Shown in pieces: positions 7,928-17,441 of a stretch of DNA of 21,390 nucleotides. Positions within the stretch are counted from its first letter, which is position 1. Each line of letters begins with the position of its first letter. Under the pieces are notes generated by a model. It was not told the origin of the DNA. It made no database searches and worked only from the letters and a program-made list of their open reading frames with translations. Source of the DNA: a virus; IMG/VR virus record IMGVR_UViG_3300025628_000014, positions 1-21,390 of that record, one strand, 5' to 3'. Made by a program: the position numbers and the translations under genes.

Positions 7928-7957
7928 ATTATATCATATTATAGGCAATACTGTCAA
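7928..7957 (-). promoter_or_regulatory. Late-module promoter upstream of terS
   Basis: On the minus strand, TTGACA (7957-7952), an 18-nt spacer, TATAAT (7933-7928) and a TGA extension before the -10. Both hexamers are perfect. Start is expected near 7921, almost on the terS ATG at 7919. It shares TTTGACAGTATT and ATATG with the rightward promoter at 12,222. Confidence 0.8.
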
Positions 7958-9514: not shown

Positions 9515-10021
9515 TTACTTGGCTAGTTTGTTTTTAATGATATCGTGTAATAATGTAACTTTACCGCGTACAGTTTCATGGGATAGTTTATATTTCTTCC
9601 CAATATCCCTAAAGGATAAATCATTCATATATCTATCAAGGTACATTGCTGATTCGAGACTATTGTTTATAATACCTTTTATTTTATCAATAATATCATT
9701 GCATTCTAATTCCTTAGTAATATCATAAGTATCATGGTTATCATACACCATCGGTAAAGGAGTATTGCTCTTATTATTGCTCGGTACTCGTATCAATGAG
9801 CCTGTATTTTCAATAGCCCGTACAATAGTTTGTTTAATCCAATATGAGGCATAAGTTGTGAACTTGGTACCCATATCATCCCTATAGCGTGATTTTGCAA
9901 GTATTAATCCGATGTTACCTTCCTGCACTAAGTCGTCAAAGTCGAGGCCTCTGTGTTGATACCTCTTTGCTATTGACATCACTAGTCCTTTATTTTCAGT
10001 AATTAGTCTATTAGTTACCAT
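9515..10021 (-). CDS. Phage-encoded sigma-70 family RNA polymerase sigma factor
   Basis: The 168-aa product would bind host RNA polymerase core and redirect it to chosen promoters. Region 2 is intact: NKGLVMSIAKRYQHRG (residues 10-25), DFDDLVQEGNIGLI (27-40), and KFTTYASYWIKQTIVRAIEN (53-72) covering the -10 recognition and melting helices. LIRVPSN (77-83) resembles the region 3.0 start seen in primary sigma factors. The C-terminal LSFRDIGKKYKLSHETVRGK (135-154) is a region 4-type helix-turn-helix for the -35. Region 1 and most of region 3 are missing, so it is much shorter than RpoD. I start it at the ATG at 10021, which has a strong AAAGGGGA site and lies 1 nt after the previous stop, rather than at ATGs further upstream that lack such a site. 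Confidence 0.88.
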   Translation of the reverse strand: MVTNRLITENKGLVMSIAKRYQHRGLDFDDLVQEGNIGLILAKSRYRDDMGTKFTTYASYWIKQTIVRAIENTGSLIRVPSNNKSNTPLPMVYDNHDTYDITKELECNDIIDKIKGIINNSLESAMYLDRYMNDLSFRDIGKKYKLSHETVRGKVTLLHDIIKNKLAK

Positions 10022-10022
10022 A

Positions 10023-10235
10023 TTATATCCCCTTTCCATGATATACAGCATCCCTAAAACGCTGATAATCGAAACGAGGATTATCATTTATAAATATATC
10101 TGATATTTTATCAACTAATGACTCAAACCGAATACAAAGCGCCACATTTAATTCAAATGACACATCTTTATAGCTATCACCATTCCATTCAATACTTAGC
10201 ATTTTAGCAAACTTTACATAATCTTTTTTTCTCAT
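10023..10235 (-). CDS. Small conserved phage protein (70 aa), DNPRFD type
   Basis: The C-terminal half, NDNPRFDYQRFRDAVY, matches a widespread phage small-protein pattern (DNPRFD..RF..A) that I have seen annotated only as hypothetical. The N-terminus is helical and basic (MRKKDYVKFAKMLSIEW). The ATG follows AAAGGGAGTAATACT. It ends 1 nt before the sigma-factor ATG (TAA-T-ATG), so the two are probably translated together. Function unknown. Confidence 0.78.
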   Translation of the reverse strand: MRKKDYVKFAKMLSIEWNGDSYKDVSFELNVALCIRFESLVDKISDIFINDNPRFDYQRFRDAVYHGKGI

Positions 10236-12221: not shown

Positions 12222-12251
12222 TTGACAGTATTATAAACAATATGGTATAAC
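12222..12251 (+). promoter_or_regulatory. Main rightward promoter of the replication operon
   Basis: TTGACA (12222-12227), an 18-nt spacer, TATAAC (12246-12251) and a TGG extension. Start is expected near 12,258, about 33 nt before the first rightward ATG. It shares TTTGACAGTATT and ATATG in register with the terS promoter. Confidence 0.8.
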
Positions 12252-12290
12252 TCTTAAGAGTGTTGATAGTTACTTAGGGGGGATTATAAT

Positions 12291-13601
12291 ATGATTACTA
12301 AGGTATGGAAGGATGAATTACAGCGTAGATGGTATTTACCTGATTCTGAGGCATATCCTTACATATCTGTATCCACCATTGTAGGTATTGCTAAAACATA
12401 TAGATATAAAGACTTTAAGAAAGATGAGAAATCAGCCCAAAGACTTAAAAAGGCAGGTCAGATAGGTACCGATATACATGCAGTGCTAGAGAAGTATAAT
12501 AGAGACATATTAGGACAACCGTTTAACATTAATCCCAAACTACAAGCAAGATACTCACATATATTAGAAAGATATATTGATAAAGTTGCATTAATATCAA
12601 TGAATGAAGGAGAAGTAAAGATATTAGAAGTAGAAAGACAATGTACTCACCCAATATACAAGTATGCAGGTAGATTCGATGTATTAATGCAAGTAGGGGA
12701 TGATATAGAACTATGGGACTATAAGACTGCTAGAAGAATACACGAAGAAGAAGGATGGGGCTTAGTAGCATATATGATGGCTTTAAGACATGAAGGTATT
12801 AATGTTAAAAGAGTACGTATTATACATATAGACAAGGTAAGTGGTAAGATAACAGATTTAAAGTATAAGAATAATAATTTTATGTTCTTACACTTCTTAG
12901 GCTTAATAGAAACATTCAAAGGTATGTACTTCAATGATCTATTAAAAGGACGAATACATGACATAGAAGAACTAGGAGTTAAGTATAAATGGCCACTAGA
13001 AGAATTGACAAATAACTACATACTATGGTATAACCAACACAAAGGAGATAACACTATGAAACTCGAAGAGGTAACAGGATTAGGCGATAAGCCAACATTT
13101 AAGAAAGACCCTAACAGAGTAGATTTCAGTGAACCAGTATCAGGAGTAATATTAGGCAATGTACCTAGTAGATGGGTACATAAAGTAGGTAAAGATAAAG
13201 TATTTACATGTGAAGGTAAAGATAAATGTGAAAGATGCGCATTAGGAATGAGAAAAGTAGTACAGTTTAAAGCTAATTTCCTTACCATTGATGGTACTGA
13301 TAAACCTATAATTAAGTTTATCGAATCAGAATCTTCAAGATTGTATTTTGCTCTTTCTGATGCCTTTGCATCTATCAAAGATAGTGGTGGTGATCTTAAA
13401 ACAGCAGTACTCCAAATTACGCGTACAGGTGAAAAGTTTGAAACCCAGTACAAAGTTGAGAACGTAGAACCTAAACATAAAGCATTTAAAGACATAGAAT
13501 CCACTATATCTGATATGGAACCATTTGAGTTAGCTTTTGCAAAGCCCGAAGGAGGCAATGCATTAGCAGTAGATAGGACTAACATAGTAGAGGGTAAATA
13601 A
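12291..13601 (+). CDS. PD-(D/E)XK nuclease fused to gp32-like ssDNA-binding domain
   Basis: The first rightward gene, 436 aa, with a GGGGGGATTATAAT ribosome-binding site. Residues 1-250 form a RecB/Cas4-like exonuclease: GTDIH (His63), Glu113 in ILEVERQ, GRFD (Asp130), DYK (Asp143, Lys145), then a helix with EGWGLVAYMMAL. Residues 256-436 look like a phage ssDNA-binding OB-fold protein. They carry a zinc-type motif His297-x9-Cys307-x5-Cys313-x2-Cys316, in the order of T4 gp32 (His-Cys-Cys-Cys). They then have KFIESESSRLYFAL and a C-terminal acidic part. The junction (YNQHKGDNT-M) is unstructured and carries its own promoter and ribosome-binding site. This looks like two ordinary phage genes joined by loss of a stop codon, giving a fusion plus a separately made second product. 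A full-length nuclease without the fusion is not otherwise encoded. Confidence 0.85.
   Translation: MITKVWKDELQRRWYLPDSEAYPYISVSTIVGIAKTYRYKDFKKDEKSAQRLKKAGQIGTDIHAVLEKYNRDILGQPFNINPKLQARYSHILERYIDKVALISMNEGEVKILEVERQCTHPIYKYAGRFDVLMQVGDDIELWDYKTARRIHEEEGWGLVAYMMALRHEGINVKRVRIIHIDKVSGKITDLKYKNNNFMFLHFLGLIETFKGMYFNDLLKGRIHDIEELGVKYKWPLEELTNNYILWYNQHKGDNTMKLEEVTGLGDKPTFKKDPNRVDFSEPVSGVILGNVPSRWVHKVGKDKVFTCEGKDKCERCALGMRKVVQFKANFLTIDGTDKPIIKFIESESSRLYFALSDAFASIKDSGGDLKTAVLQITRTGEKFETQYKVENVEPKHKAFKDIESTISDMEPFELAFAKPEGGNALAVDRTNIVEGK
13005..13034 (+). promoter_or_regulatory. Promoter inside the nuclease/ssDNA-binding fusion gene
   Basis: TTGACA (13005-13010), an 18-nt spacer, TATAAC (13029-13034) and a TGG extension. 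Start is expected near 13,041, followed at once by AAAGGAGAT (13041-13049) and an in-frame ATG at 13056. It has the same hexamers, spacer length and extension as the main rightward promoter. Confidence 0.75.
13056..13601 (+). CDS. Nested start: stand-alone gp32-like ssDNA-binding protein
   Basis: An in-frame ATG, codon 256 of the fusion, follows a near-perfect ribosome-binding site (AAAGGAGATAACACT, 8 nt from the GGAG) and a consensus promoter. The 181-aa product starts MKLEEVTGLGDKPTFKKD and has the motif His42-x9-Cys52-x5-Cys58-x2-Cys61. Its predicted role is coating single strands during replication and recombination, needed in large molar excess, which would explain the extra promoter. 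It shares its stop with the fusion. Assignment as ssDNA-binding rests on the gp32-like zinc order, the W.H...C..C layout of phage SSB-like proteins and the neighbours (polymerase, RecA). Phage RNA-binding OB proteins are an alternative. Confidence 0.7.
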   Translation: MKLEEVTGLGDKPTFKKDPNRVDFSEPVSGVILGNVPSRWVHKVGKDKVFTCEGKDKCERCALGMRKVVQFKANFLTIDGTDKPIIKFIESESSRLYFALSDAFASIKDSGGDLKTAVLQITRTGEKFETQYKVENVEPKHKAFKDIESTISDMEPFELAFAKPEGGNALAVDRTNIVEGK

Positions 13602-13756
13602 TGAAAAGTATATTTTTGGAGGGTATAGAACAAGCAATAGAAAAGGCCTATACTGCTCTTGAAACATTGAAACAGCTTGATAAAGAAGAAGAAGAGCTTA
13701 ATAAGGCTATGATAAGTACTCTAAACAATGTAGTGAAGGGATATATTTATGAGTAA
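13601..13756 (+). CDS. Small coiled-coil protein (51 aa)
   Basis: The ATG overlaps the fusion's TAA (TAATG) behind GAGGG. The product contains EGIEQAIEKAYTALETLKQL and an acidic run (DKEEEELNKAM), a single long amphipathic helix likely to form a coiled coil. It overlaps the next ATG by 8 nt. No family recognised. Close coupling on both sides supports expression. Confidence 0.65.
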   Translation: MKSIFLEGIEQAIEKAYTALETLKQLDKEEEELNKAMISTLNNVVKGYIYE

Positions 13757-14534
13757 GAAAAGTAAACAGAGTGTTAAGTCAATAGCATTAACAGCAGATT
13801 GGCACGTAGGTAGTATGACAGGACTATCTGCAATCCCTAAGAATGATACACAAAAGGCATTACTAAGTAAGTTTAAAGAATGTATTAGTATGTATGGTAA
13901 GCCTGATATGTTAATTATTAATGGGGATGCTACTGATGGGGATCAGCGTAAGTCAGGTGGTGTAGGCCTATCCGAAGCTGATCTTAGAGAACAAGAAAAG
14001 GACGTAGTAGCACTCATTAAACTATGGAAACCTAAAGAAGTATTTTTAGTGAGTGGTACTGCTTACCACGTAGGACTAATATCTAGTGAACAAAGAATAG
14101 CTGATACTCTTAATGATTATTGTAATATAAAGGCCACATATATACGTAAATTAAACTTAATTATCAATAATTGGTTTAGATTTCAAGCTAGGCACTTTAT
14201 AGGCTCATCCAATAACCCAGCAGGTAGGGCTACAGCAGCAGGTAGAGCCAATATGTGGGAAATATTAAATGCTTACCAATCAGGAGATAAAGCAGCAGAT
14301 TTATCAGTATTTGCTCACGTACATTACTATGATTTACACCAATCAGCATTTGGCACCACTATGGTATTACCATGTTTCCAAGCATACGGTACACCCTATG
14401 GTGATGAGAAGTGTAGTGGCCATATAGACATAGGTATGGTAAACCTAATAGTAGGTAAAACAGAGAAAGAAGGTTGGTCATGGTCAAAACAACTGTACTC
14501 GGCAAAAATAAAGTCACGAAACCTAAAACGATAG
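13749..14534 (+). CDS. Calcineurin-like metallophosphoesterase
   Basis: The 261-aa protein carries the metal-binding motifs of the superfamily: Asp17-x-His19 (TADWHVGS), Gly-Asp60-x2-Asp63 (INGDATDG), GTAYHV with His107 in place of the usual GNHE, His149 (QARHF), and His190-x-His192 (FAHVHYY, the GHxH motif with Ala). The set suffices for a two-metal phosphodiesterase, though the missing Asn of GNH may lower activity or change specificity. Relatives in phages act as nucleases of the SbcD/Mre11 type or as nucleotide phosphatases; the short length with no capping domain does not decide. The ATG follows GAAGGGATATATTT. Confidence 0.85.
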   Translation: MSKKSKQSVKSIALTADWHVGSMTGLSAIPKNDTQKALLSKFKECISMYGKPDMLIINGDATDGDQRKSGGVGLSEADLREQEKDVVALIKLWKPKEVFLVSGTAYHVGLISSEQRIADTLNDYCNIKATYIRKLNLIINNWFRFQARHFIGSSNNPAGRATAAGRANMWEILNAYQSGDKAADLSVFAHVHYYDLHQSAFGTTMVLPCFQAYGTPYGDEKCSGHIDIGMVNLIVGKTEKEGWSWSKQLYSAKIKSRNLKR

Positions 14535-16755: not shown

Positions 16756-16977
16756 ATGGATGATGATCCTAAACGAATACCAGCCATATGTAAATTACTC
16801 GAAGAGGCCTGGTTAAAGGTACCAGAACAAAGATTTGGCCAATTCTTATCTAATTACGTATATGGACACCATGTAGACATATTCTATAAATGGGATAAAC
16901 ATGTATTAGAAATGTTAGAGGTTATATTACATAAAGGTAAACATGCCCCCAAAGCTACTAGAAAGAGGAAGAAGTGA
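16756..16977 (+). CDS. Small conserved phage protein (73 aa), DPKRIP type
   Basis: The sequence DPKRIPAICKLLEEAWLKVP then RFGQFLSNYVYG and DIFYKWD matches a widespread short protein of phages and bacteria (DP.RI..I..LLE..W...P.lRfgQl..N...d.FY..D), which has no agreed function. The C-terminus is very basic (HAPKATRKRKK). The ATG follows GGGAGAGGACTACAAT. Its TGA overlaps the GTG start of the next gene. Confidence 0.8.
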   Translation: MDDDPKRIPAICKLLEEAWLKVPEQRFGQFLSNYVYGHHVDIFYKWDKHVLEMLEVILHKGKHAPKATRKRKK

Positions 16978-17441
16978 ACATAGAACAATACATATCAACA
17001 CCCGAAGTTAAAAAGATACTATACTATTGGAGAAGAAGATATAGTACTAACTGTACATTATACACCAAAGAAGAACTATTAGCAGAAGCATACTTAGGAG
17101 CTTGGGAAACAATCTTAAAGTACCATTCTAAGCCCTTCCAAGAGCTATTAAAGCTCATATCCCTAGGTGTCAAGTGGAAACTATGCAACTACATATCTAA
17201 ACAATCTACCTGGAAGCTAATAAGTGTTACAGAACACATTGAAGAAAAGGGACATTCTAATAATATAGAGGGTAATATTTATGTTAAAGGTAAATTAGAT
17301 AGTTTAGATATCAAAGAGAAGTTAATAGTTACTAAGACATTAAAGGGATACACTATGCCAGAGATAGGTAAATCCCTAAATATATCTAAACAACGAGTAT
17401 TCCAATTACTTAGAAAGTGTGGTAAAGATGAAGATAGATAG
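16974..17441 (+). CDS. Sigma factor-like protein with C-terminal HTH
   Basis: The 155-aa product looks like a small sigma-70/ECF-type protein. A region 2-like part holds YTKEELLAEAYLGAWETILK (residues 31-50) and ISLGVKWKLCNYISKQ (about 62-77). The C-terminal LKGYTMPEIGKSLNISKQRV (about 123-142) is a region 4-type helix-turn-helix. The linker is short and Lys-rich. The -10 helix is degenerate next to the leftward sigma factor, so an anti-termination or DNA-binding role is also possible. The start is a GTG, chosen because AGAGGAAGAA lies just upstream and no ATG follows soon. Confidence 0.7.
   Translation: MNIEQYISTPEVKKILYYWRRRYSTNCTLYTKEELLAEAYLGAWETILKYHSKPFQELLKLISLGVKWKLCNYISKQSTWKLISVTEHIEEKGHSNNIEGNIYVKGKLDSLDIKEKLIVTKTLKGYTMPEIGKSLNISKQRVFQLLRKCGKDEDR

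Follow-up and report, generated by a model that had tools for sequence, protein, structure and literature searches.

Putative gene within a gene: internal promoter and start signals in a phage gene for a predicted nuclease-SSB fusion

Why should a phage gene for a single polypeptide carry a promoter, a ribosome-binding site and an in-frame start codon at the very point where its two predicted domains meet? The question is raised by the window analysed here, the whole of a 21,390-base stretch of DNA that is a complete IMG/VR record. Pfam and PHROG annotation of the window assigns terminase, portal and head proteins to the leftward genes; those running rightward, from position 12291 on, are assigned to replication, and a family A DNA polymerase is among their products. 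The gene that begins there (12291..13601, + strand) encodes a predicted PD-(D/E)XK nuclease followed by an SSB-like domain of probable OB fold, and a first-pass annotation had proposed that it yields both a nuclease-SSB fusion and, from a nested promoter and start, a free SSB. On the sequence evidence set out below, we consider this gene-within-a-gene reading to be probably correct. Gene callers give one product per frame and therefore usually miss internal promoters and starts; a nested SSB of this kind would never be annotated.

The fusion gene, its relatives and its domains

The positions given for the junction in the first-pass annotation proved exact. TTGACA is located at 13005-13010 and TATAAC at 13029-13034, separated by an 18-nt spacer that ends in TGG; AAAGGAGAT at 13041-13049 is followed by an ATG at 13056-13058, which is in frame with the ORF 12291-13601. 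The predicted sizes also hold, at 436 aa for the whole ORF and 181 aa from the internal ATG. The fusion gene itself has a strong Shine-Dalgarno (SD) sequence, AGGGGGG (pairing -12.7), at its start at 12291.

Relatives were sought by several scan routes, some of them profile-guided, over 2.9 million viral contigs, and the same few contigs were returned. Besides the window, five contigs carry the complete gene, giving six contigs and four distinct sequences from a small set of uncultured phages. Full-length identity to the window is 77% for G001, 73% for G002 and 65% for G003; within the gene, at most one base sets G004 and a further contig apart from G003, and a fragment, G005, shows no difference from the window in its first 142 residues. 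By domain, identity to the window is 64-76% for the SSB part and 65-78% for the nuclease. The conservation tests described below rest on four distinct sequences and are of limited power. Two scans of bacterial and archaeal genomes returned no relative of the fusion, and tblastn searches with the fusion and with its SSB part gave no match among 50,697 phage records. A stop or frameshift at the junction, for which a look at relatives had been advised, is found in none of the six independently assembled contigs (four distinct sequences), and beside the junction the length varies by one whole codon only. Judged from these alignments, the open reading frame across the junction is genuine.

The N-terminal domain (residues 1-255; 255 codons, 12291..13055, + strand) scores 36.3 bits with PF12705 (cut-off 22; E=7.5e-9) and matches phrog_298 with E=1.8e-16. 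Its conserved residues include H63, D130, D143 and K145, and the motif GRFD130 ... WD143YK145T is invariant in all four distinct sequences. By prediction, the domain is a PD-(D/E)XK nuclease of the RecB/Cas4 type. The curated Cas4 cut-offs were missed (TIGR00372, 29 bits vs 65; PF01930, 16.4 vs 22.7), and a sequence search against the PDB gave no meaningful match for either the nuclease domain or the SSB domain. Nuclease homologues in other, cultured phages are stand-alone proteins of 205-275 aa. In seven neighbourhoods of such homologues none was fused to, or annotated next to, an SSB, and the 302-aa gene beside the nuclease in Flavobacterium phage immuto is without a family match. For example, gp214 of Synechococcus phage ACG-2014d (Cas4/RecB-like, phrog_298) is a homologous nuclease with 25% identity over about 190 aa (tblastn E=0.1); phage exonucleases of phrog_298 such as this one are encoded by a stand-alone gene, unlike the fusion.

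At residue 157 (about 12759-12761), a QxxxY-like position, the window and G001 have Gly, and G002 and G003 have Gln. Nucleases of the PD-(D/E)XK type often have Gln at this position, and the Gly may affect catalysis or specificity.

The C-terminal domain comprises residues 256-436, which correspond to the nested gene for a putative free SSB-like protein (13056..13601, + strand, 181 aa). It contains the motif H-x9-C-x5-C-x2-C (H297/C307/C313/C316 of the fusion), which is invariant in the four distinct sequences and consistent with a zinc site, and a conserved C-terminal tail reading DRT(D/N)IV. Weak matches to SSB PHROGs were obtained for all four members. For phrog_1607 the match to residues 256-436 is weak and partial in each of them (E = 1e-4 to 1e-3, best 1.1e-4), and covers 46 of 285 positions in the window protein. 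An AlphaFold model of the entire fusion reached only a poor pLDDT of 49 and was left unused; the model of the SSB domain, with a modest pLDDT of 69, has the strands of an OB-type barrel. Its best solved neighbours in Foldseek are RPA, PrgE, BRCA2 and SSB, all as weak matches to the PDB (no E-value <1e-3, TM-scores of 0.2-0.3), and its viral structural neighbours include named SSBs. These comparisons, each weak by itself, in combination suggest SSB as the likeliest identity of the domain. The earlier description as gp32-like draws on the Cys/His motif, the predicted OB fold and the weak phrog_1607 match, and not on membership of the gp32 family, for which there is no Pfam match.

The bacterial SSB profile PF00436 matched none of five contigs, and a second SSB (phrog_1607, phrog_1192 or PF00436) was not found in these five contigs, which are fragments of up to 41.5 kb. 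Because no other SSB was found in them, the free protein is probably the working SSB of the phage.

Internal start and internal promoter

The internal SD, AAAGGAGAT (13041..13049, + strand), with the core AAAGGAG, precedes the in-frame ATG 13056 and has a pairing energy of -8.7 kcal/mol. This is the strongest pairing with the 16S tail among the 69 internal in-frame ATGs of window genes; the value falls within the range of real gene starts and is reached by 2.8% of all codon positions. The claim that the SSB can start independently is upheld by the relatives, as the internal ATG and an SD are kept in all four distinct sequences (energies -8.7, -8.7, -8.7 and -9.1). In G003 (L007) the SD is formed by GAG GAG (Glu-Glu), and in the others by AAA GGA GAx (Lys-Gly-Asp/Glu), the codon phase being different. 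In G003 both the residues and the codon phase have changed and the SD is kept, so that the base motif has outlived the amino acids. No other single observation argues as strongly for independent synthesis of the SSB. The fusion and the internal start both appear well supported.

A generic promoter match is no evidence by itself in this AT-rich genome, since a generic sigma-70 scan finds no more sites than in shuffles (50 vs 53 per 10 kb); the scan misses the internal site, whose -10 ends in C. The phage has a promoter family of its own, TTGACA-N15-TGN-TATAAY. When TTGACA (at most one mismatch)-N15-TG-N-TATAAT (at most two mismatches) with an 18-base spacer was counted, there were five sites in the window vs 0.75 expected, and no other spacer was enriched as much. 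Likewise, an exact TTGACA with a near-consensus -10 at normal spacing occurs five times in the window, always with the 18-base spacer. The family sites lie at 12222, 13005 and 19885 (+) and at 7957 and 7347 (-); four of the five are just upstream of genes, and the fifth is the internal site at 13005. Members of the family precede the genes for the small and the large terminase, the rightward operon and a gene that follows the polymerase gene. They occupy matching places in the window, G001 and G002, with sites also in G005, and have mostly been lost or have diverged in G003/G004.

The promoter of the rightward operon (TTGACA-N15-TGG-TATAAC, 12222..12251, + strand) has counterparts in the corresponding position in G001 (37853, -) and G002 (11889, -), and is also present in G005. 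It shares its hexamers, the 18-base spacer and TATGGTATAAC with the internal promoter (TTGACA-N15-TGG-TATAAC, 13005..13034, + strand), which is situated in the coding end of the nuclease and kept in G001 and G002. The candidate promoter first noticed inside the gene is thereby recognisable as one of the phage's own promoters, kept by three of the four sequences, and we infer a transcript start near 13041. A different sequence, TTGATA-16-TATAAT at 12263-12290, was rejected as the promoter of the fusion gene because it overlaps the fusion ATG; the site at 12222 is preferred.

Using a matrix trained on the relatives' other promoters, the score of the site at 13005 is of a level expected 0.05 times per whole window. 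When internal sites were left out of training, the internal site was the next best after the other promoters in the window, G001 and G002; training on G001 and G002 alone placed it sixth in the window, with one unrelated site just above it. At the junction of G003/G004 the matrix scan found no recognisable internal promoter (score -17). The TTG in the internal -35 is seldom used for Leu (4% of Leu codons), and when the gene was recoded synonymously the motif reappeared, at any position within it, in 1.07% of cases; thus, the internal promoter does not appear to be a by-product of the protein. Among the three phages, 10 of 12 synonymous codons at the junction are identical, vs 42% gene-wide (P = 0.003), a value obtained for an interval chosen around the site. 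The junction is the most conserved such interval of the gene, and significance is gone once G003 is included, which is to be expected if G003 is without the promoter. The internal promoter can be regarded as fairly well supported by these comparisons.

Two side observations concern other promoters. The small-terminase promoter (7957-7928, -; also G001 1008, G002 14079 and G005 4760) has a -10 from which the ATG is only 7-8 bases away, an arrangement kept in four contigs. Because of this short distance, and because the small-terminase gene of the window is without an SD (energy -2.2), a leaderless mRNA is predicted for it. The likely promoter of the fusion in G003/G004 (L007 3147-3176) is found inside an upstream 203-aa lipoprotein-like ORF, with 83 bases between it and the GTG start codon of the fusion.

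Two products from one gene, and the alternatives

If the gene-within-a-gene reading is correct, transcription from 12222 and translation from 12291 would produce one polypeptide consisting of the nuclease, a short linker and the OB-fold SSB domain. The second promoter of the phage family, at 13005, would give a short mRNA from near 13041, with a leader of about 15 bases that starts at the SD, and on this mRNA the SD and ATG 13056 would direct synthesis of the SSB alone. The internal SD should be usable on the long mRNA too, and would be the sole route to free SSB in the G003/G004 lineage, which is without the internal promoter. The free SSB might coat replication or recombination intermediates. 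A minority of SSB units would carry the nuclease, which might be brought to or held at ssDNA/dsDNA junctions and resect DNA for recombination or for processing of replication ends, at a dose set by the ratio of fusion to free SSB. More tentatively, with a chance that we put at somewhat under even, the locus may be a replication/recombination module whose SSB coat is doped with covalently attached nuclease in a set proportion, amounting to an exonuclease-SSB recombinase of genetically fixed stoichiometry. Such co-assembly and dosage are inferred; if the two products do co-assemble, the locus would be a simple case of a phage dosing a nuclease on ssDNA by gene architecture.

Points against the gene-within-a-gene reading include the missing internal promoter in G003/G004 and the -10 that ends in C, besides the weak SSB matches and the Gly at residue 157. 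The first two favour an alternative in which only the internal start matters: free SSB would come from the long mRNA, and no use would be made of the promoter-like site at 13005. In its favour, all four sequences have the SD and ATG, the G003/G004 fusion has the SD without the promoter, and the -10 reads TATAAC, not TATAAT. We consider this alternative unlikely, as the promoter of the clade at 12222 also combines TATAAC with an N18 spacer, and the internal site, which depends on a rare Leu codon, has been kept in three diverged phages with a score a little below those of the other promoters.

Less probable is a self-control of the Rpn kind, in which the C-terminal product would act mainly as a brake on the fusion, by binding it or its ssDNA substrate, and so protect phage DNA. 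The anatomy is indeed that of rpn genes, whose small product is often more abundant and inhibitory (PMC10327210). However, the C-terminal domain here is SSB-like and the sole SSB candidate found in the contigs, so that a general SSB role is to be expected, and whereas Rpn C-termini vary highly between strains, this SSB domain is as conserved as the nuclease. No family of the Rpn type matched the fusion among the Pfam or NCBIfam results.

More improbable still is a plain fusion that yields nothing but the 436-aa protein, with internal signals that either arose by chance or survive from an SSB gene that was once separate. Stand-alone nuclease homologues exist elsewhere, and therefore a fusion event must have occurred; relics, however, should decay over 25-35% protein divergence, and here the SD and ATG are intact in four of four sequences and the promoter in three. 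The internal SD would also happen to be the strongest of 69, and the phage would be left without free SSB. That a sequencing or assembly error erased a stop or frameshift between two ordinary genes, a general possibility for metagenome contigs and nothing more, has a negligible chance in view of the same frame in six contigs (four distinct sequences) and the clean whole-codon indel.

Comparison with described systems, and neighbouring genes

The first-pass annotation knew of no described phage system with this layout. As regards the pairing of nuclease and SSB this seems to hold, as the pair is apparently undescribed, but the layout itself has precedents in rpn, M13 and T7. In T7 gene 4 an in-frame internal start separates the 4A primase-helicase from the 4B helicase, and the shorter, C-terminal product acts together with the full-length protein. 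Its product is a helicase hexamer, not an SSB, and not a nuclease, and we know of no conserved promoter at its internal start. Papers on 4A/4B are cited, by title, in PMC9484634. The M13 genes I/XI and II/X are likewise in-frame nested genes with internal starts that give the C-terminal product (PMC9228878). They resemble the fusion gene in this internal start, but their products are an assembly ATPase and a replication initiator, with unrelated domains.

The rpn genes encode a PD-(D/E)XK nuclease and contain an internal transcription and translation start, from which the C-terminal part is made at a higher level and inhibits the long form (PMC10327210). Thus a PD-(D/E)XK gene, an internal promoter, an in-frame internal start and a C-terminal domain that is made separately, often in larger amount, are features in common. 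In contrast to the fusion gene, Rpn is not a phage replication module but a host-defence toxin-antitoxin system with a nuclease of a different family, and what its C-terminal domain provides is an inhibitor, small, variable and dimerising, rather than an OB-fold SSB. The locus described here would extend this nuclease gene-within-a-gene layout from bacterial defence to a phage's own DNA metabolism.

An exonuclease in complex with a ssDNA-binding or annealing protein is known from lambda Exo/Red-beta and RecE/RecT (PMC7496540). The logic of exonuclease plus ssDNA-binding partner is the same, but in Red and RecET the genes are separate, the complex is non-covalent and an annealase with a different fold takes the place of the SSB. 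T4 gp32 and T7 gp2.5 are phage SSBs with an OB fold and a conserved C-terminal tail, and gp32 has a Cys3-His motif. The SSB-like domain resembles them in its predicted OB fold and its conserved C-terminal tail, and gp32 in carrying a candidate Cys3-His motif; it differs from T4 gp32 in Cys/His spacing and has no gp32 or PF00436 family match, and neither gp32 nor gp2.5 is nested in a nuclease gene. No report of an exonuclease-SSB fusion was found in open-access papers; what seems to be new is that a phage joins nuclease and SSB covalently and conserves the internal signals.

Elsewhere in the window, the gene at 9515-10087 (-) encodes a sigma-70-like factor (PF04542, E=3e-18), for which the ATG at 10021, with a strong SD, is probably a better start than 10087, and a second, short sigma-like protein is encoded at 16974-17441 (+). 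The next gene after the fusion (13749-14534, +) codes for a calcineurin-type phosphoesterase (phrog_7339, DNA repair exonuclease); in G003/G004 a different-looking metallophosphoesterase is found in its position instead.
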